Part shown: in pieces, positions 3,895-36,217 of the stretch
Position numbering within the stretch: the first letter of the stretch is position 1
Layout of the letters: the number at the start of each line of letters is the position of its first letter
Assembly: GCF_001428245.1 (NCBI RefSeq)
Contig: NZ_LMRV01000028.1
Location: forward strand, 1,326-65,325
Length of the DNA stretch: 64,000 nt
DNA from: Paenibacillus sp. Soil522
Lineage (GTDB): Bacteria; Bacillota; Bacilli; Paenibacillales; Paenibacillaceae
Direction: 5' to 3'
Program-made: the position numbers and the translations under genes
The notes under the pieces: model-generated
Databases searched by the model: none
The model's input: only the letters and a program-made list of their open reading frames with translations
What the model was told of the DNA's origin: nothing

Positions 3895-4623
3895 TTATCC
3901 TTTAATAGCAGTCATCCATATGCGTTGAAATTGATGGGATGGATTAAGCCTTGTCCCTAAGGAAGATAATTGCTCAGGCTGGTGACTCGTTATGGGATGA
4001 AAGCCTGCATGCTCTAGCATCTCAATCAATCTGTTCTCTAGAACACCATTTATGGAATGGCCTACACTTTTCTTCTTCCATGCGATAGGCATATGACTTC
4101 TTGTACATCTTCCCATTTTTGACGAAGTCGTGCGGAAAAAGGGGTCTACGTTACGCGCCTTCCAATCGCCGTCCATGACGACTATTTTGCCGCCAGGCCT
4201 CAGCACTCTGCCCCATTCTGTCAATGCGCATGCTATGCAAGAAAGCCCCGATAGCACGTTTCGGCTAACGACGGCATCAAAGCTTCCGTCTGGAAAAGGC
4301 AGCAGCTGCGCATCTCCCTCAATAAATGTGCACGATAGCCCTATTGCTTCGGCCTTTGATCTCGCGATGCGAAGCATCTCGCTGGATAGATCGATACCCG
4401 TTACACGATGTCCCTGCTCTGCAAGCTGCAAAGCAAGCAGCCCCGGCCCTGTACCCACATCCAATACGTCTAGCTCCGATTTCCCTTCAAGCAGCTTACG
4501 CAGAAGGCCGTTCCATCGCTCCTTTTGCTGTGTCGTTTCCAGAAGGCGATCTGTTCCTTTTGCGTAAGCTTTCGCTTTATTATCCCAGACAGAAGCGATT
4601 GCCGTCATGACTGCATCTGTCAT
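3895..4623 (-). CDS. Class I SAM-dependent methyltransferase
   Basis: This is a 242-residue methyltransferase of the Methyltransf_11/25 type. The SAM-binding motif LDVGTGPG (about 54-61), the acidic end of strand 2 in GIDLSSEML (about 76-84), and GDAQLLPFPDGSFDAVVSRNVL (motifs II/III) are intact. It probably methylates a small molecule; the substrate is unknown. Its ATG overlaps the stop of the upstream unknown gene by four bases (ATGA), so the two are translationally coupled and belong to the operon that starts with the AAA+ ATPase. If that operon answers to the Zur-type site at 6041-6061, this enzyme is part of the zinc-limitation response. Confidence 0.88.
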   Translation of the reverse strand: MTDAVMTAIASVWDNKAKAYAKGTDRLLETTQQKERWNGLLRKLLEGKSELDVLDVGTGPGLLALQLAEQGHRVTGIDLSSEMLRIARSKAEAIGLSCTFIEGDAQLLPFPDGSFDAVVSRNVLSGLSCIACALTEWGRVLRPGGKIVVMDGDWKARNVDPFFRTTSSKMGRCTRSHMPIAWKKKSVGHSINGVLENRLIEMLEHAGFHPITSHQPEQLSSLGTRLNPSHQFQRIWMTAIKG

Positions 4624-5108: not shown

Positions 5109-5189
5109 TGAAACGGCCTAATCGTACGAAAACCCCGGGATCGGATCCTATTGTGTAGTATGCTGCTCTTTTTCGATAGCCAGAAACAG

Positions 5190-14444: not shown

Positions 14445-15419
14445 TTAAACAATGCCTTCCTGTCCCATTTTTTTCACAATATAATTGGTTATCATAACTA
14501 AAGCAAACCCGATCACATTTTTAAACAACCCGACGGCAGTCGTCATACTGAACTGAAAGTTTTGCAGACCAATACGGTAGACATAGGTATCCAAAATGTC
14601 ACCAACCGCATATACATTGGCGTTATATAAATTCAGCACCTGGTCAAAGCCGGCATTCAGAACGCCCCCGATTCGCAATATAAACAAAATGGCGATGACA
14701 GGAAGAATGGATGGAATCGTAATATGCAGCGTTTGCTTCCAGCGATTCGCGCCGTCCATGACGGCAGCCTCATACAACTGCGGATCAATGCCTGCCAAAG
14801 CGGCCAAATATATGATCATTCCCCAACCGACATCCTTCCAGATTGCGGACATGATCAACGATAATTGGAAATAGGCTTCACTTCCCAGAAAATAGATCGG
14901 ATCAAATCCGAACCACTCGATCACATAATTCACAACGCCAGTGTTCGGGGACAACAGCATAACCAATATACCCGAAAGCACAACCCATGAAAAAAAATAA
15001 GGCAAATACGTGAGCGTCTGCGTGAAATTCTTGAACCTCTTGAAACGGACTTCGTTAAATAACAGCGCCAATATGATAGGAGCGGGAAAACCAAAAATAA
15101 TATGATATAAGCTGATCACAACGGTATTCCTCAATACCCTCAAAAAGTCCGGAGACTGAAAAAACAAATATTTAAAGTGCTTTAACCCGACCCAAGGGCT
15201 CCCCCATATTCCGTCCCGGATAAAAAAATCTTTAAAAGCCAATTGAATACCGTAAATGGGACCGTACTCAAAAACAACATACCAGATCAGCGCAGGAAAT
15301 AGCAGCATGAACAAATAGCGGTTCCTCTTATACTGTTTCCAAGTATGCGCCAACTTCGACGTTCTATTGTTACTGATTCTTTTAATACCGCCAAGTTCAG
15401 GGGCGTTTGCCTGATTCAT
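14445..15419 (-). CDS. Sugar ABC transporter permease (LplB/YteP type)
   Basis: This is a 324-residue permease of the MalF-like group, first gene of the importer operon. After a basic N-terminus there are six hydrophobic segments, and the EAA loop reads LYEAAVMDGANRWKQTLHITIPSILP. The ATG at 15419 has AAAGGAG nine bases upstream. Its promoter (15495-15547) carries the shared TTGAAAGAAT/TACAATAG/cre-like architecture seen also before the giant secreted protein and the GH28-like gene. The adjacent AraC-type regulator is the obvious candidate activator. Confidence 0.94.
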   Translation of the reverse strand: MNQANAPELGGIKRISNNRTSKLAHTWKQYKRNRYLFMLLFPALIWYVVFEYGPIYGIQLAFKDFFIRDGIWGSPWVGLKHFKYLFFQSPDFLRVLRNTVVISLYHIIFGFPAPIILALLFNEVRFKRFKNFTQTLTYLPYFFSWVVLSGILVMLLSPNTGVVNYVIEWFGFDPIYFLGSEAYFQLSLIMSAIWKDVGWGMIIYLAALAGIDPQLYEAAVMDGANRWKQTLHITIPSILPVIAILFILRIGGVLNAGFDQVLNLYNANVYAVGDILDTYVYRIGLQNFQFSMTTAVGLFKNVIGFALVMITNYIVKKMGQEGIV

Positions 15420-15494
15420 GTTTGTAAGCTCCTTTCAATTAAATGTGTTTAAGGCGTCGGTTCCTAAGCTCGCTTGACTCCTACTTTACTAAGA

Positions 15495-15547
15495 TGAAAA
15501 CGTTTTTTCTATTGTAAACTCATTTGATTGCTTATACATTCTTTCAA
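15495..15547 (-). promoter_or_regulatory. Shared-regulon promoter C with cre-like site (importer operon)
   Basis: On the minus strand TTGAAAGAAT starts at 15547, TACAATAG begins exactly 31 bases later (15516-15509), and AAAAAACGTTTTCA (15508-15495), a 12-of-14 cre-like element, follows directly. No good -35 hexamer lies 17 bases before TACAAT, suggesting an activator-dependent promoter. The same layout recurs at 25233-25285 and 42444-42497. Confidence 0.65.
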
Positions 15548-15575
15548 ATAGGTTTATAATTTCTTTAATGAAAAA

Positions 15576-15600
15576 ACAGCAACCCGTATTGGGCTGCCGT
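15576..15600 (-). terminator. Terminator of the AraC-type regulator gene
   Basis: GGCAGCCC pairs with GGGTTGCT (with G-U pairs) around a five-base loop and is followed on the minus strand by a T run. It separates the regulator from the importer promoter. Confidence 0.75.
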
Positions 15601-15619
15601 TTTATTGGGGGAAGCTGCG

Positions 15620-18122: not shown

Positions 18123-21100
18123 TTAGATAAGCGATTGAGCCCACCGGATTAGGATGTCCGCTTGTTCTTTCGTTAACGTTTTTCCGGACTGATCCGTTAC
18201 TTGACCTATATAAGAGGTCATCAAACTCTTCACCGAAGCTGTATCGCCTCGTCCAGCTGCAGCTTTCGCTTGATCCAGCTTCGATTTCAAAGCTGTTTTG
18301 ACAGCGTCCGAACCTTGAGCACCTGTCGCCTGAAGGAATGCGGCCGTTACTGTCTTTAAGCTGTCAAACGTTGCCTTAACGGTAAACGTATGCGTAACCG
18401 TCGTTACATGACCTGCCATGTCCTCCGCTGTGACCGTTACCGTATTCTGTCCGGCCACTAGTGTATACGCTTTGACCTCCAGCAGCGGTTTAGCGCATGG
18501 TGTACCGTATATACTCGAAGTAACATCGGTCGCGGTGCACGTCATGGTAACCGTCTGGTCGATCGTGTATGAAACCGCGCCTGTTATTTTCGCCACAGGT
18601 GCCGTAAGGTCGATTTTGACCTCCAGCGATTTCTCCACTCCCGTTTTAACGGAACGATATAGAAGCTTGTGCGTTCCTTCTTCTTTCAGAGTAATTGGCG
18701 CTTTATAGGCAACCCAGCTGCTCCCGCCGTCCAGACTGTATTCCGCGATTGGCGCAGGAGACAAAGTCACAGTAACAGGTGATGTATACCAGCCGTTCTT
18801 GCCATTTGGAACCGCAGGATCCAAGGCTGTGGATACATCCTTCCACTGTAACCCTTCCAGTGCCGCAAGCAGGCTGGCATCCGCCGCATTAATCTCTGCC
18901 TGGGTTGCATCAGCATTTGCTGATACGAGCTCCGCATCTGATACAGCCTTCTGTAGGACCGCTACACTTTCCTCTGTATAATAGTCGGCGTTAATAGCTG
19001 AAGCTTCCTCCAGTAAGATCGTCAGCAAGCTGTTGTCGATCCACTTCGCCGTATTGTTCACTACGGCCTGAATCTCTTCTACCGTTAAAACGTGATTATA
19101 AATGCGGAATTCGTCGACCAAACCATTGTACAGCGGATCGGGCCACTGGCTCTTTCCGATGTAATTCTTACTCGGTTTGAAATCGCTTGGTTTGATTGTG
19201 AAGCCGTTAACAGAGGCCTTCTGCTCGCCGTTAACATACAATTGCGCCGTACCGTTTCCGAGCGTTACCGCCACATGAACCCATTGATTAGCGGCAAGCT
19301 GCGAGGTTTGCACGAATTGTTCGCCGCCGCCGTTCTTGATCGCGAAACGCAGCGTATTATTGCCTGAACTCGGCGTAAGGAACATATATTGATTGGTGTT
19401 GTTCCCGAAATCGAAAATCCGTTGCCAATTGCTTCCGCCTCTCCAGTACACCCAGGTTGCAAAGGAGATCTCATTGTAAGTGGACATAATATGCGAAGAT
19501 GGCAGCGTGGCATAATCGTCACCACTCATATTGAAAGCTTGGCCGACTTTTCCTTCCGTGTAAACAGGCGTCCCGTCGACGGTTCCGTGAGACGTTCCTA
19601 AGGAATTGTCCGCATTTCCTTCAAACGCATAAAGCGACGGAACCGGAACAAGTAAGCCTTCCGCCTGGCCAAGCTCAGCTGCAAGCTGCACCTTATCGGC
19701 TTCCGGTTTTGCCATTTCCGCTTCGATCCGCTCTACTTCCTTCATGTAGAGGTAATAGCTGCCCTTTGTAATGTCTGTAGAAGAAAGAATATTAAGCATT
19801 ACCTTAAAGTCCACGATTTGTGTAACTGAAAAATTACTGTTGCTGACCGTAAAGGTTACCGGATGACTGCCATAATCCGCTTGACCCGGTGTCCATATTA
19901 AGGTGCCGGTCGATGCGTTGAATACCGCGCCTGCAGGCAAATTGCCGGCGCTGTAAGACAAAGCCTCTCCTGATAGATCAGTTGCCGTTACATTATAGAT
20001 GAGCTGTTGTTTCGCCGTCAGCTCCACAGTCGTATCAGAGGAGAAAATCGGTTGTCCTTTTACGGTAATTTTGATGGTTTGAGAAGATGACTTCTCACCA
20101 GATGTTGCGGTAAAGGTTACGGTATAAACGCCGCTCTGTTCTTTGGCCGGCGTCCATGCAAAGGTTTGGGTATCCGCGTTGAAGGTGGCTCCTTCAGGCA
20201 GACCGCTGACCCCGTATACAATGTCTTCATTGGTATTCGTCGCTTGTACGACAAATGACAGCTCTTTTTCCGCGGTGATGGTTTTGTTTCCAATGGAATC
20301 AAGCACCGGCATTCCCGGAATATACTGCAGTCCCTTTAGCGCCGGTACCAAGTCCTCTGCCGCCGCATCAATCTCTTCCTGTGTTGCACCCTCGTTGCCG
20401 GCAACCGGTGTTGCTGCGGTTACAGCCTGCTCGAGAGGCTGCAAGCTTTCAGCCGTATAAATCTCAGCAGCAACAGCTGCAGCCGATTCATCCAGCAGCT
20501 GCGTGAGCAGCGTTTTGTCAATGCCTCTCTCCATGAACTCTACTTCCTGAAAGTTCACGAAACCGGAATGATTATCATAGATACGGATATACCGGTATGG
20601 TGTTGGATCCGGATTGATGGCCGAATACCATTTGAATCCATTTACGCCAGTAATCTTATGAAGGTCGACCCAGTTTACGCCATCGTTAGAGCCTTTAAAG
20701 ACCGTATTGTTGGCACGGGTGAAATGACTCTCCCTTGGAAGATATTTGAATGTGTCAACTACTTTTTCATTGCCTGTGCCAAAGTCGATATCAACCCAGC
20801 TTACAGCCGACCTGGTGTGGGTAAGGTTAGTCAGTATGCCGTCGAATAAAAACCATCCGTTTTGCGCTTCAGAGATATTATCATTTCCCCAATATTTTTC
20901 GGATGCTCGAACCATAGAAGGCAACATCTGAACTTTCGTCAGCAGCGTTCTGAACGAAACAAGCACATTTTTAGCTGCATAGATATCGTTAATCAGCTGC
21001 TCCTCATCAAAGCCCGGTTTTGCCATTTCCGCTTTGATTCGGTCCAGCTCTTTTTGGTACAAGTAAAAGCTGGCTTTCGTATAATCTTTAGCCGGAAGGC

Positions 21101-24100
21101 TCTCGGCATCTTCCATGACGACTGCAATGGAATCCGCATAAGCAGAAACGGTTGCTGAGAACGGCTGCGGCGATCCATCACCATGGACGGCCATTACCTT
21201 GTAGTGCAAGCTGCCGTATTTCAGGATTGCTTCTTCGAAGGATGTTGCTCTTGTACCCGCGAGAACTTTCGTCCAAGGGGATCCGTCTACGAGTTCCGTC
21301 GTACCCGGTTTAAATACCGGATCAGTCAAGCCCGCCGCTTTATCATTGGTGCGGTACAGATGGAAGGAGGTAGCCTGCTTCGGTTTATTCCAGTTAACCG
21401 TAACTTTGTCCTTCACTTGTACGATATAAGGCTCTATGATATTGCGCGGCGTTTCCGTTACGGATACCCCGCTGAACTGCGCCCCAGCCGCTGCCACAAC
21501 GCCTGCATGGTAGGCATATGGCAATAGGGTCATCATCTTCTTGACAAATTTCCATGTTACGCCATCCTTGGACACAAACGCATTCACATTTTGCGAATCA
21601 TGTTCGCGTACCAATTTAATATACGGATAATCTGCTGCCTTGTATCCGGTAACCCCCGGGTTGTATGGACTCATGACCACACCGGACCATTGGATGCGGG
21701 AATCCCTTGTACGGCTTTGCAAGACGAGATTGCCGTCCTGATCTGCGCCGAAATACATGTAACGAGTATTGGAAGCAAGCTGGTCGCGCAGCATAATTCC
21801 GCTTGCTGCTCCGCTATGGCTGTCAATCTTCGCGCTAATCGTGCTGCTGCCGGCTACGACTTGGCTTACGAAATGCAAGGAGTCGTTAATGTTTCTCTTG
21901 TAAATATTGTAATCGTCGCCGGTTCCAAGACCCTTGCCATCGGCAGACTCGATCGCGATCGAATCGCCATTAACTGTTGCGCTGCCGGACGTTGTGCCGA
22001 TCCGGTCGTCACGCCATCCGTCAGTCATGCCGGATATCGGCGCTGTCAAATCGACCTTCGCCCGCCATGAATCCCATCCGGCTCCGTTATCATTTACGGC
22101 AGCTACTTTGTAATAATAGACGTTGCCGTTCTGTACATCCGTATCTTTGTAATAATTGCCTGTTACTCCTGTTGCAACGGTCTCATACGTGCCGTTTTCC
22201 GTTGTCGAACGTTTAATCGTGTACGTTTTCCCGCCGGATGCCGTTCTCCACGAGATGCCGGCATAGCCGTTGCCTGCCAGCGCATTCACGAAATCAACGT
22301 GGTTCGGCTTCTGGGCCGCATCGAAATCGGAGGACAGCTTCAGCACCATCGCCGACTTGTGTGAAATCGTCACTTTCCCGTTCACAACAGGAATACTCGC
22401 TCCCGTCACCAGATCCAGCACCGTGCTTCCGTTGTAATCGGACGGCAGCTCAATCTCGAACGATTGTTCGTTTCCATATTCGCTCCGGGTTGTATTCATG
22501 GCCATAAAATATTTCCCGTATCTTGCGGTCATCAAATCCGGATAACCGGAATACGGATGGTCCACTTCAAAGTTATCGCGGTTGACTCTGCCGACGCCCG
22601 GCTGATAAGCGGAAGGATTCACTTCTCCAGCCAGCGCTTGCGGCAGTTTGCCTACATTGGCTGCTTGATCCGACATAAAATCAACGTCTACATTCTGAGT
22701 ACGAATGTAGTAGTCCTCATACTGGAATTTCGAGTTGGTGGCGACTTGTACGACGCTTTCATAATTGTCTTTCATGACATGAAGACGTCCGTTGCCCGCC
22801 AGTCCGCGATTGCGGAGATATAACGAGCCGTTAAACGAAAGATCGCCGTCTCTTACCGACAAGATCATGTTGTCGATGTCTGCCCATGCAAACTGCTGAT
22901 AATCAGCCGGATCAACGCCAAGTTCGGCTATTTCTTCCGGTGTATAATAATCAAAATCCGTGTGCGGCAAGATCACGCCGGCTTTTAATGTTCCTCCCAG
23001 CTTCGGGTAGGTGTTACGCTGACCAGTCAGGTAGCTGTATACTTCCGGCACCAGAAAATTCTCGGCGCTCATGGAACTATACTGGCCGAAACCGTAATTG
23101 AACAGTTGGTTATCCAGCATTTGCTGCTGCGTAATCCCGACTGCCTCTTTCGCATACTTCCAGTACGGATCCCATTCCGGACCGCTGTATCTTTGCTCGT
23201 TCTGAACCATCGCCATTTCCAAAGACGCGAACAGAAGGGCCGTTCCAGAACTTGCCCTTGGTCCATAGGCGTCAAATCCGATCGGGCCCTCGTTCCGTTC
23301 ATCCAGCGTTTGATCTGCGGTCATGACCCGATTCTTGTCGCCATTGAGCATCGGAACGCGGAGATACTTGCGGGCATTAATCGTTTTTAACGCCAGTTTC
23401 AGGATCTCGTCGTTCAGCGCTTCATCACCTGCGTGATTTAATGTTTTATAGAAATATTCCGGAAGATAGTTGACGGCTTCGCCATAGTTGCCTACATACG
23501 TATTTTCTCTAGACAAACCTGCTTCGGTAATGCCTACGTAATGCTCCCCGTACGGCTTCCGTCTGACGACTTTTCCTTCCGCATCCAGCTTGCTTTTGGC
23601 AAGTCCTTTACCGACAATATGCACATAATCATTCGTGAATACCGCTGCTTGATCGTGATGGAAAAGGGAGTGGTACAGATCCAATTCCTCGCCATTCGGT
23701 CCAACCAGCACTTCTTCGCCCAGAAACGGTATGACGCCGAGCGCTTCAAGCAGAATGTCATGGCTGCGCTGCTTGCCTTCAAAGAAGCTCGACCCGATTA
23801 TACCAAGTCCTTCGTGAGCTTCCCATGCGCCCTCGTATGTATAGAGCTGCTGGTTATAAATATAGGACAGCCTTGAGCGGGCAAAGTCGAAGCTCGCTTT
23901 CAGCGCCCGTTCCCATGCTTCGCGGCGCGTCAATTCGCCGCCGTTCCAGTCTACGCCTGCCAGCGAGAACTCGCCAGCGGCTGTTCCAGTGACGAACGTT
24001 TGGTTCAGGAAAGCGTCGAATGCCGCTTGTCCATATACCGCATCATCCTTGATGAGGTTTTCGACAATGTACAGCGCTTCACCCAAAGCGCTGTAATAAC

Positions 24101-25100
24101 TGCCCCAGTCGCCTTGATGTCCGCCGCGAAGCACCCTTCTTGAATCGGCGTAATAATCTTTTACATGATTGTCAATCGATTTGAAAATACGCGCTAGCGC
24201 CGCTTTTTTTAGTTCCGGCGTATTAGCGGGAGACCAGGACTGATTCAATATCCTTGAATAATATCGCATATCGTCCTTGTACCGCTCGATCGAAAATTTA
24301 GCTCCTGCCGAACTATCGATCTGGCCTGACATGGTGTTAAACCGGTTGATTTGAGCCTGTCTGTGCGCATCTACTTTGGCTTGCTTCTCTGCATCCGTAA
24401 TGTCTGCCTTCACAATGGAAGCCATGTCCGCCGGAAACAATTCCGCTCCTTGAGGTTCATCCTCCACATTCAGATAGGCTTGCGGATGCGTGTAGGCTGT
24501 ATAATATTTCTTGGAAGTAGTATCCATATTGCCAAACACGTTCATCGTTTTGATGGTGATTTCAACGGTCTCCTTGCCTACCGTCGTTTCCAGCGGAAGC
24601 ATGATCGTGTAGTACAGAAAGCGATTCGGGATTCCCCAGCTCCGATTAAACGTATAATCCCCGTTTCTGTAAAACCCTACTTGCTCGCCGTTAACGACCA
24701 GAACCGGTTGATGCCCCGCTTCATCCGAGAACTTCATCGTGAAATAGTTCTGGAGATAGGGATCGACCTTCATCGTAAACGTCAAATCTCCGCCCTGTCC
24801 CTCCAGCGGTGTACGCGGATTCGACACCCGGGCAGGCTCGCCTAAGAAACCGGTAATGGTGCTTGTGAAATCGCCTGTAAATTGGTGGGCGCTTTCAGAG
24901 GCGCTATCGCCGAATACAACCTTATCCAAATATCCGTTACTGCCGTTGATTGCTGCTGTTTCTGCATGCACGAGCGAAGGCTGCATCGGAATAAATAATT
25001 GTGAAATTAGCGCAACAATGAGGCTGACAGCCAGCACTCTCGCAACCTGGTTGGTCAAATACTTTTTTGAGTTAAAGACTTCGCTAGTAAAACTGCTCAT
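18123..25100 (-). CDS. Giant secreted multidomain carbohydrate-active protein
   Basis: This is a 2325-residue exported protein. The signal peptide ends near residue 46 (VHA/ET). Then come a beta-rich region (to about 225) and a large mainly helical then beta domain (about 230-930, with RGGHQGDWGSYYSALGEALY near 325-345) that looks like an (alpha/alpha)-toroid polysaccharide lyase or hydrolase, although I cannot place its family. Downstream are FN3 (about 935-1025), a DUF1349-like sandwich (1030-1220), FN3-like (1225-1325), a discoidin-like domain (1400-1525), two FIVAR-like helical bundles (1530-1595, 2015-2085), two Ig-like domains (1595-1770), LamG (1820-2015), further Ig-like repeats and a FIMAH-like end. 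No LPXTG or SLH anchor is visible. The ATG at 25100 has AGGAGG six bases upstream. Confidence 0.85.
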   Translation of the reverse strand: MSSFTSEVFNSKKYLTNQVARVLAVSLIVALISQLFIPMQPSLVHAETAAINGSNGYLDKVVFGDSASESAHQFTGDFTSTITGFLGEPARVSNPRTPLEGQGGDLTFTMKVDPYLQNYFTMKFSDEAGHQPVLVVNGEQVGFYRNGDYTFNRSWGIPNRFLYYTIMLPLETTVGKETVEITIKTMNVFGNMDTTSKKYYTAYTHPQAYLNVEDEPQGAELFPADMASIVKADITDAEKQAKVDAHRQAQINRFNTMSGQIDSSAGAKFSIERYKDDMRYYSRILNQSWSPANTPELKKAALARIFKSIDNHVKDYYADSRRVLRGGHQGDWGSYYSALGEALYIVENLIKDDAVYGQAAFDAFLNQTFVTGTAAGEFSLAGVDWNGGELTRREAWERALKASFDFARSRLSYIYNQQLYTYEGAWEAHEGLGIIGSSFFEGKQRSHDILLEALGVIPFLGEEVLVGPNGEELDLYHSLFHHDQAAVFTNDYVHIVGKGLAKSKLDAEGKVVRRKPYGEHYVGITEAGLSRENTYVGNYGEAVNYLPEYFYKTLNHAGDEALNDEILKLALKTINARKYLRVPMLNGDKNRVMTADQTLDERNEGPIGFDAYGPRASSGTALLFASLEMAMVQNEQRYSGPEWDPYWKYAKEAVGITQQQMLDNQLFNYGFGQYSSMSAENFLVPEVYSYLTGQRNTYPKLGGTLKAGVILPHTDFDYYTPEEIAELGVDPADYQQFAWADIDNMILSVRDGDLSFNGSLYLRNRGLAGNGRLHVMKDNYESVVQVATNSKFQYEDYYIRTQNVDVDFMSDQAANVGKLPQALAGEVNPSAYQPGVGRVNRDNFEVDHPYSGYPDLMTARYGKYFMAMNTTRSEYGNEQSFEIELPSDYNGSTVLDLVTGASIPVVNGKVTISHKSAMVLKLSSDFDAAQKPNHVDFVNALAGNGYAGISWRTASGGKTYTIKRSTTENGTYETVATGVTGNYYKDTDVQNGNVYYYKVAAVNDNGAGWDSWRAKVDLTAPISGMTDGWRDDRIGTTSGSATVNGDSIAIESADGKGLGTGDDYNIYKRNINDSLHFVSQVVAGSSTISAKIDSHSGAASGIMLRDQLASNTRYMYFGADQDGNLVLQSRTRDSRIQWSGVVMSPYNPGVTGYKAADYPYIKLVREHDSQNVNAFVSKDGVTWKFVKKMMTLLPYAYHAGVVAAAGAQFSGVSVTETPRNIIEPYIVQVKDKVTVNWNKPKQATSFHLYRTNDKAAGLTDPVFKPGTTELVDGSPWTKVLAGTRATSFEEAILKYGSLHYKVMAVHGDGSPQPFSATVSAYADSIAVVMEDAESLPAKDYTKASFYLYQKELDRIKAEMAKPGFDEEQLINDIYAAKNVLVSFRTLLTKVQMLPSMVRASEKYWGNDNISEAQNGWFLFDGILTNLTHTRSAVSWVDIDFGTGNEKVVDTFKYLPRESHFTRANNTVFKGSNDGVNWVDLHKITGVNGFKWYSAINPDPTPYRYIRIYDNHSGFVNFQEVEFMERGIDKTLLTQLLDESAAAVAAEIYTAESLQPLEQAVTAATPVAGNEGATQEEIDAAAEDLVPALKGLQYIPGMPVLDSIGNKTITAEKELSFVVQATNTNEDIVYGVSGLPEGATFNADTQTFAWTPAKEQSGVYTVTFTATSGEKSSSQTIKITVKGQPIFSSDTTVELTAKQQLIYNVTATDLSGEALSYSAGNLPAGAVFNASTGTLIWTPGQADYGSHPVTFTVSNSNFSVTQIVDFKVMLNILSSTDITKGSYYLYMKEVERIEAEMAKPEADKVQLAAELGQAEGLLVPVPSLYAFEGNADNSLGTSHGTVDGTPVYTEGKVGQAFNMSGDDYATLPSSHIMSTYNEISFATWVYWRGGSNWQRIFDFGNNTNQYMFLTPSSGNNTLRFAIKNGGGEQFVQTSQLAANQWVHVAVTLGNGTAQLYVNGEQKASVNGFTIKPSDFKPSKNYIGKSQWPDPLYNGLVDEFRIYNHVLTVEEIQAVVNNTAKWIDNSLLTILLEEASAINADYYTEESVAVLQKAVSDAELVSANADATQAEINAADASLLAALEGLQWKDVSTALDPAVPNGKNGWYTSPVTVTLSPAPIAEYSLDGGSSWVAYKAPITLKEEGTHKLLYRSVKTGVEKSLEVKIDLTAPVAKITGAVSYTIDQTVTMTCTATDVTSSIYGTPCAKPLLEVKAYTLVAGQNTVTVTAEDMAGHVTTVTHTFTVKATFDSLKTVTAAFLQATGAQGSDAVKTALKSKLDQAKAAAGRGDTASVKSLMTSYIGQVTDQSGKTLTKEQADILIRWAQSLI

Positions 25101-25232
25101 TTTGTTCCTCCTCAAAATATACATCGTTTTTACCTCAACCCTTCTTCTTTCACCTCCAAAAAACTATCTCTTGCTATTGCGATATGTACGCCTGACCATG
25201 TTGATGTGAATTCAAAACAAACATTAACACAA

Positions 25233-28307: not shown

Positions 28308-28339
28308 AAGCTGCTCCTTATCCTTTATAAGTGCCTAAA

Positions 28340-28363
28340 GAAGATGGCTGAGCCATCCTCTTC
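28340..28363 (-). terminator. Hairpin downstream of the Spo0E-like gene
   Basis: GAAGATGGCT and GCCATC-TCTTC arms form a stem with a very short loop, just upstream of the GH43 start. The following T run is weak (TTCTTTAG), so it may stabilise or attenuate rather than terminate. Confidence 0.4.
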
Positions 28364-28476
28364 AGATCATTTGTTTTATTTGATAAACTAAAAAAAAAGA
28401 TTTTTATGCTTACCTTTATTCATAAGTACCCTCATTTCGTATATACCGTTCCAACAACGCTGGTTCAGAGAATCCT

Positions 28477-28656
28477 TTAGCCTTCCGACACCCTCCCCAA
28501 AAGCAAGTGAGCCTTTGCCTTCTGATATTCAACAATATATATATCAAGTTTTTGACTTAAATTAACAATACTTTCATCCGAAAGACATCCTTCGATCATA
28601 GCCTTCTCAACCAAGAAAGAACGTAATTGCTCGATACGATTTTCCAATTTGTGCAT
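28477..28656 (-). CDS. Spo0E-family aspartyl-phosphate phosphatase
   Basis: This 59-residue protein is easily missed because of its size. It has the two-helix Spo0E layout: MHKLENRIEQLRSFLVEKA, a short turn, then the signature SQKLDIYIVEYQKAK (S-x-x-L-D-x-x-I). Family members dephosphorylate Spo0A~P in the cytoplasm and so delay sporulation. The ATG at 28656 has AGGGAG seven bases upstream. It sits between the second importer operon and the GH43 gene on the same strand, an unusual position that could link nutrient import to the sporulation decision. Confidence 0.85.
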   Translation of the reverse strand: MHKLENRIEQLRSFLVEKAMIEGCLSDESIVNLSQKLDIYIVEYQKAKAHLLLGRVSEG

Positions 28657-28722: not shown

Positions 28723-28761
28723 TCGAGAGGCTCGTTTGGCAAATACCGCCGAGCCTCTCGA
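28723..28761 (-). terminator. Hairpin after the second importer operon
   Basis: A perfect 12-base stem TCGAGAGGCTCG / CGAGCCTCTCGA with an inner small hairpin follows the last permease gene by about 20 bases. No strong T run follows on the minus strand, so readthrough into the Spo0E-like gene is possible. Confidence 0.55.
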
Positions 28762-32501: not shown

Positions 32502-32515
32502 TGTTTCCGTTTACA
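32502..32515 (-). promoter_or_regulatory. cre site (CcpA) of the second importer operon
   Basis: On the minus strand TGTAAACGGAAACA matches the cre consensus TGWAANCGNTNWCA at all but one defined position. It lies between the likely transcription start and the start codon. Confidence 0.65.
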
Positions 32516-32611
32516 TTTTCATTATGATGTTTTTCCTGACTAGCTTGAATAGAATATCTAAACCCTCTTATATAAAAATCTTAACTATATCTTGCTGAAA
32601 CTTAAAAAAAA

Positions 32612-32630
32612 GAAATCCCGAAGGATTCCT
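32612..32630 (-). terminator. Terminator of the response regulator gene
   Basis: A compact GGAATCC/GGGATTTC hairpin with a three-base loop is followed on the minus strand by a run of T. Confidence 0.75.
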
Positions 32631-32642
32631 CACAACATGCCG

Positions 32643-34274
32643 TTATGAATTTGATTGAATCTGTTCCCGATGCTGCTTGGGAGTGACGCCATAATATTTT
32701 CTGAATACATTACTGAAATAGGATGCATCCTCAAAACCAACCCTATTCGCAATATCTTGTATTTTTATATCCGTCTCCCGCAGCCAATCCATAGCTTTCT
32801 TCATTCGGATACCCGTTAAATAGTCGACAAAGCTTTGAGCATACCTTTCCTTAAAACGACGGGAAAAATAATTGGGATGGATATAGAACCGCTCTGAAAT
32901 CGACTGTAGAGTAATGGATTTGTCATAGTTCATTTCCATATAATATTTTACCTCTTCCATCAGGTCCTTATTCGAACTGGGGTTGTTTTGGGATAAATAA
33001 CCGACGATGTTATCGGCAATGTTCTGCATTTGATTCACGGCATCTTGCCAGATTGATAAATTTTGCAACCAATACAGCAGATCGTCCATCTCACCGATTA
33101 TCCACTCCGTGACGCCCGTATTCGCAAGAAGATACTTTCGAAAGAGTAAATATAGATCGACACATAACCATTCCAATTGCATATACGTTGCCGAGGGAGA
33201 GTGCGCCAAGGATCGAATGCGAAATTCAATCCAGTTTTGCAATGCGACAGCATTATATTCGCTTAACCAATAAAAGAGCTTGCTTTCGTCCTCGTCAGTA
33301 AGCAAAATACCGCGTTCCCCTGAACGTTTTTGAAGAGATTCGTAATCGTAGATTTGTCCGGTGCCATAAATCATTTTATTGCGGATAGCCTGCTTAGCCT
33401 GCTTGTATGATTGCTGGATTTGTCCGATATCATCCACAGTAGTCCCTATAGCGATTGTCACCTGTAGCTTTAGATAATTTTGCAGCCCGTCCAGTACTTC
33501 TTTAAGCCATGCTTGGATAACCAAGCCTTCACTAGAGCTTTCGATCCCGAGCAGGTAAACCATTTCGTGTTCGTGTAAAATATGCTGAAAAAGCACCCCG
33601 TCACGTCCGCTTGATTCCATTCGCTCCGACAAAACATTCTCAATGGCAAACCAAATGAGGCTCTCGTCACCTTGCCGGAATGAATAATGCGGCAGCTGAA
33701 TGGGCTCGAGGACAAGAACAACCGCCAAATATTTCCGGTATTTGTTCTCAATACGAGAAAGCTGTTCATTACGAACTGCAGCGCTTAGGTCAGGATGGTC
33801 TGCTTGTTGGAGCATCTTCGTCATATATTGCTTGCGCAATGTTTCTCTACTTAAATCCGTTTCGTTACGCAAACGAATCATTTCATCGTTGCTCATTCGC
33901 CCCTTCTCGATCTTGTTAATGATCTTAGATAAACATTCCTTTAATTGATCATCATCAACCGGCTTTAGTAAATAATCGGATACCCCTAATCGTATAGCCC
34001 TCTTGGCATATTCGAAATCACTATAGCCGCTGACAACAATAAAGCCCAGTTGTTCGTTCATTCGCTGCGCTTGCTCAATAAATGCAATCCCATCCATGCC
34101 GGGCATTCGAATATCCGTGATGACAATATCAGGTGCTTCCCTCTGTACAAGCTCCAAGCCAGCCTTCCCATCGCCAGCTTCACCGACGATATCTATGGGT
34201 AGTCCGGACATTTTTAGTTTGTTTATAATTCCTTGACGTAAAATGGGTTCGTCATCCAATATAAGAAGCTTCAT
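32643..34274 (-). CDS. AraC-type response regulator (YesN type)
   Basis: This is a 543-residue response regulator. The N-terminal receiver has the acidic pair in LLILDDEP, the phospho-acceptor Asp54 in IVITDIRMPGMDG and Lys in LLKPVDD. A long helical middle region follows, then a C-terminal AraC domain with two HTHs (SITLQSISERFYIHPNYFSRRFK and KIQDIANRVGFEDASYFSNVFRKYYG). The ATG at 34274 is preceded by GGAGGGGG. It overlaps the end of the sensor kinase gene by 23 bases, so the pair is co-translated. It probably activates the second importer operon, which lies directly downstream. Confidence 0.93.
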   Translation of the reverse strand: MKLLILDDEPILRQGIINKLKMSGLPIDIVGEAGDGKAGLELVQREAPDIVITDIRMPGMDGIAFIEQAQRMNEQLGFIVVSGYSDFEYAKRAIRLGVSDYLLKPVDDDQLKECLSKIINKIEKGRMSNDEMIRLRNETDLSRETLRKQYMTKMLQQADHPDLSAAVRNEQLSRIENKYRKYLAVVLVLEPIQLPHYSFRQGDESLIWFAIENVLSERMESSGRDGVLFQHILHEHEMVYLLGIESSSEGLVIQAWLKEVLDGLQNYLKLQVTIAIGTTVDDIGQIQQSYKQAKQAIRNKMIYGTGQIYDYESLQKRSGERGILLTDEDESKLFYWLSEYNAVALQNWIEFRIRSLAHSPSATYMQLEWLCVDLYLLFRKYLLANTGVTEWIIGEMDDLLYWLQNLSIWQDAVNQMQNIADNIVGYLSQNNPSSNKDLMEEVKYYMEMNYDKSITLQSISERFYIHPNYFSRRFKERYAQSFVDYLTGIRMKKAMDWLRETDIKIQDIANRVGFEDASYFSNVFRKYYGVTPKQHREQIQSNS

Positions 34275-36123
34275 CCTGTCCCCCTCCCTCTTCTCCAAAT
34301 TTATTTAACCGAAGTATAACTTCAGTTCCCTGCCCTGGGAGGCTATTGATGATTAGGCCATATGGATTGCCGTATATTAACTTCAACCGCGCCTGCACGT
34401 TCATTAAGCCTATAGAGGGTTGCTGCTCCGGATTGTGACCCGCTCTTGACCAATTCTCCAGCATCGCCATAATTTTTTGCAGCTTGGATTCTTGAATAGC
34501 TTCTCCATTATTCCAAACCCTAATCTCAACATCCCGTTCATCAATCGAAGCGACCTGTATACGGATACAGCCGCCGGAAGGCATATTTTCTATACCGTGA
34601 ATAATACTGTTTTCTACTAGAGGCTGAAAAAGCAGCTTGGGCAGCCGCATTTGTTCTAAGCCGGGTTCGATATCTATGGAATAATCCAGCCGCGACTCAT
34701 AGCGAATTTTTTGAATGGATAAGTACAGCTCAATCTGCTGGATTTCTGCCCATAACGTAGACATATTGCCTCCGCTGATGTTATAACGAAACATCTTAGC
34801 CAGCGAAAGGCTGATGATGCTGATTCGCCGATCTTCATGCAGAGATGCCAGACTGTCGATCGTCCCGAGCGTATTATACAGAAAATGCGGATTGATTTGC
34901 GACTGCAGCGCTTTAATTTCCGCATCCTTCTTGACCAGCTCAGTCTCATATACTTTGACAACCAAACGATTGATTTCATTTGCCATTTGATTAAAACCTA
35001 TACAGAAATAGCCGATTTCATCTTTGGTGTCAACGGATACCGAAATGTTATAGTTGCCGGTTTCGATCTGCTTCATCCCTTTTCTCAAACTTTTGAGAGG
35101 CATGATCACCTTTGAGGAGAGAAATCCAGCAAGCAGCATAGAACCGAGAATGAAACCCAAACCGATAAGTATCGTTCTTTGAGCTACTTCATTCACTTGT
35201 TTTAGTAATTGATGTACAGGTATTTTCCCTATAATCATCCACTCGCTGTTGACTAACTTCTGATAAACGACAAGCGTTTGATCGCCTTGATCATTTAAAA
35301 ATATATGCCTTTTTTTTCCATTCTCTCGCAACTTTCTTAATCCTGTCTCATTCAATACGGATGTTCCTATCATGTTTTCGTCTTGGGCAAGAAGAATCTT
35401 GCCATCCTGTTGATTGACCAAAAAGAAATTGCCTTGTTCACCCTTCTCGACATCGTGAAGCCAGTTTCGCAGTTCATCAAAGGACAGTTGAATGGCCAAT
35501 GAGCCAATTAATTGCTGTGAAGTAACTTTTATTTCTTTCAAAGCTTGAACAAATACAAGTGTGTTTAAAATGCGGTCAGTTTTCGTATCATACATTTTTG
35601 AATTGACCCATATCCCTTTTCCATCGTTTTTCAAAGCAATGGCATGGAGGCGTTCTCTCTCTTTTTCAAACAGCTCCAATTGCTTCGAATTCCCATAATA
35701 CGTATTCGTATTACTTCCAACGATAAGCGGCGACCCCTCTAATGGATTAACAATGATTACGCCGACAATCGGATTCTCTGAAGTAAGTTTTCTGAACTTG
35801 CTCAAAAAATAGCTGTATTTGTCTGGATCGGAATCCATATGTTGAACGAAGGCTTGGAATTCCTTATCTCCAAAATAATCCCACGCTTCACCCTTGATAT
35901 AACTCATATAAGAGATTATCATTTTCTCTGACTGCTCGCTTATCTGTTCCATATTGGAAACAGCCCGTTGCTTTATATCGGCTGAAGTCCCCACATAGTA
36001 ATACGTTTCTAAGCTGATAACGGTAAGCGTTACAATCGCCAAGAAAGAGAAAAGGATTTTCCGATATAACGAGCGCCTGACATAGTCATACGGGATAAGA
36101 ATCCATTTAGCGACACGATTCAT
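34252..36123 (-). CDS. Sensor histidine kinase (YesM type)
   Basis: This 623-residue kinase has a first membrane helix near residues 23-45, an extracellular Cache-like sensor, a second helix near 325-345 and a HAMP linker. The kinase box is QSQINPHFLYNTLGTIDSLA (phospho-acceptor His), and the ATPase domain has PLVENSIIHGIENM (N box) and SIGLMNVQARL (G box). It senses an extracellular signal, presumably a sugar or binding-protein complex, and phosphorylates the overlapping AraC-type regulator. The ATG at 36123 is chosen because GAGGCG lies seven to eight bases upstream; an ATG five codons earlier has none. Confidence 0.93.
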   Translation of the reverse strand: MNRVAKWILIPYDYVRRSLYRKILFSFLAIVTLTVISLETYYYVGTSADIKQRAVSNMEQISEQSEKMIISYMSYIKGEAWDYFGDKEFQAFVQHMDSDPDKYSYFLSKFRKLTSENPIVGVIIVNPLEGSPLIVGSNTNTYYGNSKQLELFEKERERLHAIALKNDGKGIWVNSKMYDTKTDRILNTLVFVQALKEIKVTSQQLIGSLAIQLSFDELRNWLHDVEKGEQGNFFLVNQQDGKILLAQDENMIGTSVLNETGLRKLRENGKKRHIFLNDQGDQTLVVYQKLVNSEWMIIGKIPVHQLLKQVNEVAQRTILIGLGFILGSMLLAGFLSSKVIMPLKSLRKGMKQIETGNYNISVSVDTKDEIGYFCIGFNQMANEINRLVVKVYETELVKKDAEIKALQSQINPHFLYNTLGTIDSLASLHEDRRISIISLSLAKMFRYNISGGNMSTLWAEIQQIELYLSIQKIRYESRLDYSIDIEPGLEQMRLPKLLFQPLVENSIIHGIENMPSGGCIRIQVASIDERDVEIRVWNNGEAIQESKLQKIMAMLENWSRAGHNPEQQPSIGLMNVQARLKLIYGNPYGLIINSLPGQGTEVILRLNKFGEEGGGQDEASYIG

Positions 36124-36217
36124 GCTGATTCGCCTCATTTGTCTAATAATATATCGCTATTCATTCCACGGCGTACGACAAGAATCCTCTATTTTCGACA
36201 ACATGGAAAAAACAAAC

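Follow-up and report, generated by a model that had tools for sequence, protein, structure and literature searches.

Studied members of the Spo0E family restrain spore formation. The closest described proteins are Spo0E, YisI and YnzD of Bacillus subtilis and the Bacillus anthracis proteins of structures 2c0s and 2bzb (PF09388); they have the same length as the protein considered here and resemble it in their two-helix hairpin, their S-x-x-x-D motif and their profile match. Unlike the gene described below, which is part of a sugar-uptake cluster, B. subtilis spo0E is not known to lie in such a cluster. The S-x-x-x-D motif is described as the signature of the Spo0E-like family in the excerpt of PMC11115286; according to the same excerpt, C. 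difficile Spo0E, likewise a small Spo0E-like protein with this motif, acts with Spo0A and RstA, i.e., with partners besides Spo0A. In Paenibacillus, adjacent signal systems are known to control spo0E-like genes: the excerpted text of PMC7425212 reports that the Alo13 quorum-sensing system of P. polymyxa controls the spo0E-like gene directly downstream, and that spo0E-like genes follow several Alo systems in P. polymyxa and P. terrae, control having been shown for Alo13. The resemblance to the present locus is that, in paenibacilli, a signal-responsive unit is directly followed by a spo0E-like gene; the Alo signal, however, is a peptide with an RRNPP receptor, whereas the unit found here is an importer with a two-component system and a cre-like site. 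PMC3507653 names Spo0E only in its references, and none of the matches listed for the open PMC literature (titles and beginnings of abstracts; subscription papers and preprints lie outside this collection) reports a sugar-uptake operon that contains a spo0E-like gene.

The window analysed here is a stretch of 64,000 nucleotides from Paenibacillus sp. Soil522. The 59-residue frame with SQKLDIYIVEYQ singled out by the initial annotation is present at 28477-28656. It is read from the minus strand, a detail that the annotation did not give; it runs from an ATG at 28656 to a stop codon ending at 28477, its translation is MHKLENRIEQLRSFLVEKAMIEGCLSDESIVNLSQKLDIYIVEYQKAKAHLLLGRVSEG, and the strong ribosome binding site ascribed to it is found as a good Shine-Dalgarno sequence (AGGGAG) 7 nt 5' of the ATG. 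The HMM search proposed at the time as a check on the Spo0E assignment returns a strong match to Pfam PF09388 (47.1 bits against a cut-off of 23; E 2.4e-12; positions 1-42 of the 42 of the model), and the objection that a Spo0E hit might be lacking thus falls away. Since this match covers the full model and an orthologue occupies the same place elsewhere, the frame is no chance ORF. The family signature is present as SQKLD, with S34 and D38, and residues R12, S34, L37 and D38 are invariant in all 48 rows of an alignment of relatives (A2). The alignment holds 48 of 64 unique ORFs, the latter being what 75 Spo0E-like loci yield once L009, L010, L145 and L146, which have no HMM-accepted ORF, are set aside; the V4I3 row (see below) is taken from the homologous start. 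Searched against the PDB, the profile of these 48 relatives finds the solved Spo0E-like phosphatases 2c0s (E 4.3e-11) and 2bzb (E 3.3e-9); a single-sequence phmmer search of the same database gives no match at E up to 1. The predicted structure consists of helices at residues 2-22 and 28-57 joined by a loop, with a mean pLDDT of 91.1. In structure comparison, 2c0s comes up at rank 13 with Z 7.5, level with unrelated coiled coils, among them SMC, ClpC and designed proteins, and the fold match alone is thus unspecific for a helical hairpin. Membership of the 59-residue protein in the Spo0E family is well supported; it is a further member of a known family in an unusual genomic place. Two other candidates were rejected: a GreA identity, the sole NCBIfam match (E 0.048), at 13.5 bits against a cut-off of 145, and an origin from a mobile element, since none of 72,556 plasmid and 50,697 phage records matches with an E-value of 1e-3 or lower.

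The neighbours named by the initial annotation are in place, with importer genes upstream and a GH43 gene downstream of the spo0E-like gene, all on the minus strand (Table 1). The 437-residue permease carries an extra N-terminal part ahead of the Pfam core and is matched near full length at 25 loci of Paenibacillus, Cohnella and unclassified Bacillota (L054-L078). Downstream of the GH43 and acetyltransferase genes, a 2333-residue protein with laminin-G-like and Ig-like domains is encoded on the same strand at 18123-25124. The reading preferred here, to which we give a probability of roughly 0.45, is that the spo0E-like gene acts as a sugar-induced, catabolite-repressed brake on Spo0A within a cluster for sugar uptake and degradation (importer, Spo0E-like gene, GH43).

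Table 1. Features of the spo0E-like locus, in window coordinates
Feature	Position	Strand	Details
Sensor histidine kinase	34252..36138	minus	PF06580 and PF02518 pass their cut-offs; Cache and HAMP fall just short
Response regulator with AraC-type DNA-binding domain	32643..34298	minus	PF00072 91.5 bits, PF12833 78.3 bits
Intrinsic-terminator-like hairpin	32610..32631	minus	would stop transcription of the kinase and regulator genes ahead of the importer
Importer sugar-binding protein, 466 aa	31080..32480	minus	PF01547 132.9 bits
Importer permease, 305 aa	30101..31018	minus	PF00528 57.2 bits
Importer permease, 437 aa	28781..30094	minus	PF00528 80.1 bits; transport core only residues 247-430
Stem-loop past permease stop	28723..28761	minus	12-bp stem, no U-tract, 19 nt after stop codon
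Spo0E-like gene	28477..28656	minus	59 aa; motif SQKLD (S34-D38); two-helix hairpin
Foldase-like 5'-end remnant	28388..28423	minus	MNKGKHKNLFF then stop; 11 codons; counterpart follows spo0E in V4I3
GH43 gene, 610 aa	26475..28307	minus	PF04616 357.7 bits; 83% identical to V4I3 GH43

The slot behind the permease was followed through 45 permease-relative loci outside the window (41 distinct), the importer loci coming from a genome-contig scan with the 437-residue permease (33) and from a genus search (12); L079-L086 are distant relatives, and one locus ends 0.4 kb past the permease. Within the genus, this permease is found in 13 of 51 genomes, that of Soil522 included. An HMM of the genome's own paralogues, applied at E up to 1 to ORFs of at least 30 residues, detects a Spo0E-like ORF at one of the 45 loci, that of Paenibacillus sp. 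V4I3, where an orthologue 57% identical over 54 residues follows the importer permease in the same slot. The family of V4I3 is not that of the window genome (f6 for G597, which has the same hit coordinates as V4I3, against f1), and because a genome of another family has this orthologue in the same position, the placement of spo0E in the importer cluster is not accidental. The order in V4I3 is importer, Spo0E-like gene, foldase-like gene (its PPIC-type domains narrowly miss the Pfam cut-offs), beta-helix protein (815 residues; PF13229 above cut-off), GH43 and arabinofuranosidase-like gene (ASD1_dom just below cut-off). It recurs in G421, from the genus of V4I3, where only the first codons of spo0E are left before the foldase start, and Soil787 has the foldase, beta-helix and GH43 genes in V4I3 order without spo0E. 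At the nine of these importer loci where the sequence behind the permease was inspected, it consists of other reading frames. When the proteins of the cluster were sought around Spo0E-like genes (84 sources, repeats included), the permease was met only at copies of the window locus, at copies of the V4I3 locus and at L009/L052. The first permease of G421 (L201:6627-7542) and its arabinofuranosidase-like gene (14652-15606) are each matched as two overlapping pieces in different frames; these splits are frameshifts or sequencing errors.

Because G421 keeps the first codons of spo0E in the gap before its foldase gene, the ancestor of these relatives already had the gene in this cluster, and two of them have since seen it eroded. 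The reverse loss is seen in the window, where spo0E is whole, no beta-helix gene is left, and of the foldase gene only the start with 11 codons survives; the region of the foldase remnant (28391-28439) matches V4I3 at 82% of its DNA, and from 28365, before GH43 begins, the sequence is again homologous to V4I3. This pattern of losses bears on the main rival to a brake on Spo0A, according to which spo0E is a by-product of the arrival of the GH43 module and is selected for little or nothing in this place, its position reflecting the assembly of the module and the gene being in the course of loss. That spo0E is intact at two of the four module loci (window and V4I3), truncated in G421 and absent from Soil787 favours this explanation and counts against the brake; at the same time, two lineages of different families have kept an intact frame with motif and start, and the window has kept spo0E whole although it has lost one of the two following genes and all but a remnant of the other; both observations speak against a gene merely carried along.

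The synonymous divergence between the window and V4I3 gives further weight to an arrival with the GH43 module. The proportion of synonymous differences (pS) is 0.78-0.86, near saturation, for the importer genes (0.86 for the permease), 0.42 for spo0E and 0.54 for GH43; the value for spo0E differs from that of the permease (p 5e-8) and not from that of GH43 (p 0.22), so spo0E would have come with the GH43 block and not with the importer, and this suggests a joint exchange of the two, as one block, at a time after the importers had diverged. In a tree of 48 relatives, the V4I3 protein is the sister of the window protein (support 0.97). Purifying selection on spo0E is not significant (dN 0.367, dS 0.62; Fisher p 0.15, from two sequences only), which is again in favour of carriage with the module and against the brake. 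Nine other PF09388 matches in the Soil522 genome, bringing its PF09388 places to ten with the window gene, also fit carriage. Weighing both sides, we regard carriage with the GH43 module as a possible explanation, yet a doubtful one.

Searches for orthologues add to the points that count against the brake. A two-row profile (window and V4I3) matches 13 of 394 family genomes with E no higher than 1e-9, strongly only Soil522 itself (next 7e-12); 5 of 392 order genomes with E no higher than 1e-12, strongly only Soil522 and G597 (next 4e-14); and 21 of the 30 genomes in V4I3's genus with E no higher than 1e-8, strongly only V4I3 (next 2e-12). The single sequence matches 9 of 51 genomes in its own genus with E no higher than 1e-3, where the best other match stands at 5.6e-5. 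The 394 family genomes thus hold no comparably strong match, and the 392 order genomes hold only V4I3's own.

The initial annotation described the importer operon as having a leaky hairpin. A strong hairpin is indeed found in the 124-nt gap between permease and spo0E; its stem is 12 bp long and is not followed by a T-run (1 T among the 10 bases after it); the 76-nt stretch folds at -28.6 kcal/mol (z -4.4, compared with -3.4 in V4I3, -3.6 in Soil787 and -1.8 in G421). The hairpin core AGGCTCG...CGAGCCT is common to the four loci, and the pairs below it differ. There is no run of T behind the hairpin in V4I3 and, as read from the sequence, no consecutive T in G421; Soil787 has 4 T in 10, which counts against the brake, as does a second hairpin-like stretch seen by eye before the GH43 start. 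This second stretch (28330-28365; GATGGCTCAGCCATC, then TTCTTTAGGCAC) is, also by eye, strongly kept in the window, V4I3, Soil787 and G421, and may be a weak terminator or a leader element.

A 124-nt gap with a strong hairpin inside also agrees with spo0E forming a unit of its own, transcribed from a promoter between the permease and the spo0E start and expressed without relation to the importer. Set against this are the missing U-tract of the hairpin and the result of a low-power scan of 26-33 kb, which, for the minus strand from the permease to GH43, the gap included, lists neither promoter-like nor terminator-like sites. The absent internal promoter means little, because the scan performs at chance level (13 sites found against 15.6 expected) and the presumed importer promoter is also missed. 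A separate unit is in our estimate improbable. The link of spo0E to the importer is supported since the order is kept in V4I3, a remnant persists in G421, the hairpin without U-tract is conserved and the low-power scan lists no promoter or terminator in between.

At the other end of the importer genes, the minus-strand stretch ATGTAAACGGAAACA (32502-32516) is a cre-like operator by the cre consensus. It lies 21 nt before the binding-protein gene, and the window contains 5 such matches where chance alone would give 1.75. The pattern recurs about equally far from the binding-protein gene in V4I3 (4594-4608), Soil787 (4584-4598) and G421 (5157-5171), hence at 4/4 module loci with the window, and in all four the site coincides with or closely follows a box resembling TATAAT, which in the window reads CATAAT.

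A kinase/regulator pair stands beside the importer at all four module loci, and relatives of both proteins are present at 37/37 importer loci checked, V4I3 and Soil787 included. This neighbourhood lends itself to a local feedback, in which the Spo0E-like protein would dephosphorylate the AraC-type regulator of the cluster (32643-34298), and not Spo0A, and would thereby limit induction of the importer. Because all 37 loci have kinase and regulator relatives and the paralogue HMM detects a Spo0E-like ORF at only one of them, the regulator does not need a Spo0E-like protein. Its receiver, moreover, reads SGYSDFEYAKRAI where Spo0A of the same genome reads TAFGQENITQKAV, a part that matters for Spo0E action on Spo0A; both points go against the feedback. 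In its favour, the excerpt of PMC11115286 considers it plausible that, outside sporulation, Spo0E-like proteins have response regulators as partners. Partners other than Spo0A are known for Spo0E-like proteins, RstA in C. difficile being the example described in that excerpt, and this counts against the brake; a feedback on this particular regulator seems, for its part, hardly likely.

In the preferred reading, that of a brake on Spo0A, an outside sugar would be sensed by the kinase and the regulator, which would switch on the importer, and the importer would be freed from CcpA repression, via cre, when better sugars are absent. The polymerase would then, most likely by reading through past the permease hairpin, allow the Spo0E-like protein to be made; this two-helix S-x-x-x-D protein would remove phosphate from Spo0A~P, and in the presence of a usable plant oligosaccharide, sporulation or biofilm development would be postponed. 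Co-transcription, induction, the sugar, the phosphatase activity, the Spo0A target and the physiological effect are inferred, the wiring from gene order. The initial annotation had suggested a possible link between sugar import and Spo0A dephosphorylation. This is partly supported, in that gene order and the hairpin without U-tract connect the gene to the importer and the genome has one clear copy of Spo0A (C-terminal domain 154.7 bits); on the other side, the gene is missing or truncated at two of four loci and its divergence tracks that of GH43.

Other Spo0E-like genes of the genome provide a setting for this locus. A Spo0E-like gene (G000:C1:201174-201341) lies between purine- and pyrimidine-nucleoside phosphorylase genes (PNP and PDP), with a phosphopentomutase gene before them and a D-Ala-D-Ala carboxypeptidase-like gene after (L049:4201-6711, about 200.2-202.7 kb). 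Used as a query against 197 family genomes, it matches 72 of them with an E-value of 1e-4 or lower; among the best 30 loci, which were checked for place (L209-L238, 30 genomes), the order PNP, Spo0E-like, PDP is kept in 28, and the two others have PNP and no PDP match within the 1.5 kb covered. This gene looks like a family-wide Spo0E-like gene of a nucleoside-salvage cluster. Because the nucleoside cluster is far better conserved than the window gene, it lends credibility to the idea that nutrient operons can have Spo0E-like genes attached to them; no paper combining Spo0E with nucleoside phosphorylase was found in the open PMC literature. A separate observation concerns a second sugar cluster of the genome, where an SQELD frame (L052:4679-4771; G000:C42:67678-67770, minus strand) matches PF09388 at 28.9 bits and has no ATG, GTG or TTG start by ORF scan; with an importer permease (L052:3103-4227) on its downstream side and a GH35 gene (L052:5275-7107) on its upstream side, the frame has the look of a Spo0E-like gene in decay. 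Three further Spo0E-like places of the same genome (L001, L004 and L010, on G000:C41, C91 and C33) have flanking frames that are alike in pairs, as if they lay within a repeated element.

If the brake on Spo0A is real, it would amount to a direct wire from one food source to Spo0A, with a phosphatase that restrains sporulation being induced by a specific food. For the comparison of strains, nature already supplies the variants: the gene is intact in the window and V4I3, truncated in G421 and missing from Soil787. On a wider scale, it is conceivable, although rather unlikely, that paenibacilli attach Spo0E-type brakes to nutrient-scavenging operons, such as the sugar importer and the nucleoside-phosphorylase cluster; each food would then carry its own anti-sporulation signal, which would replace or complement the phosphorelay's sensor kinases.
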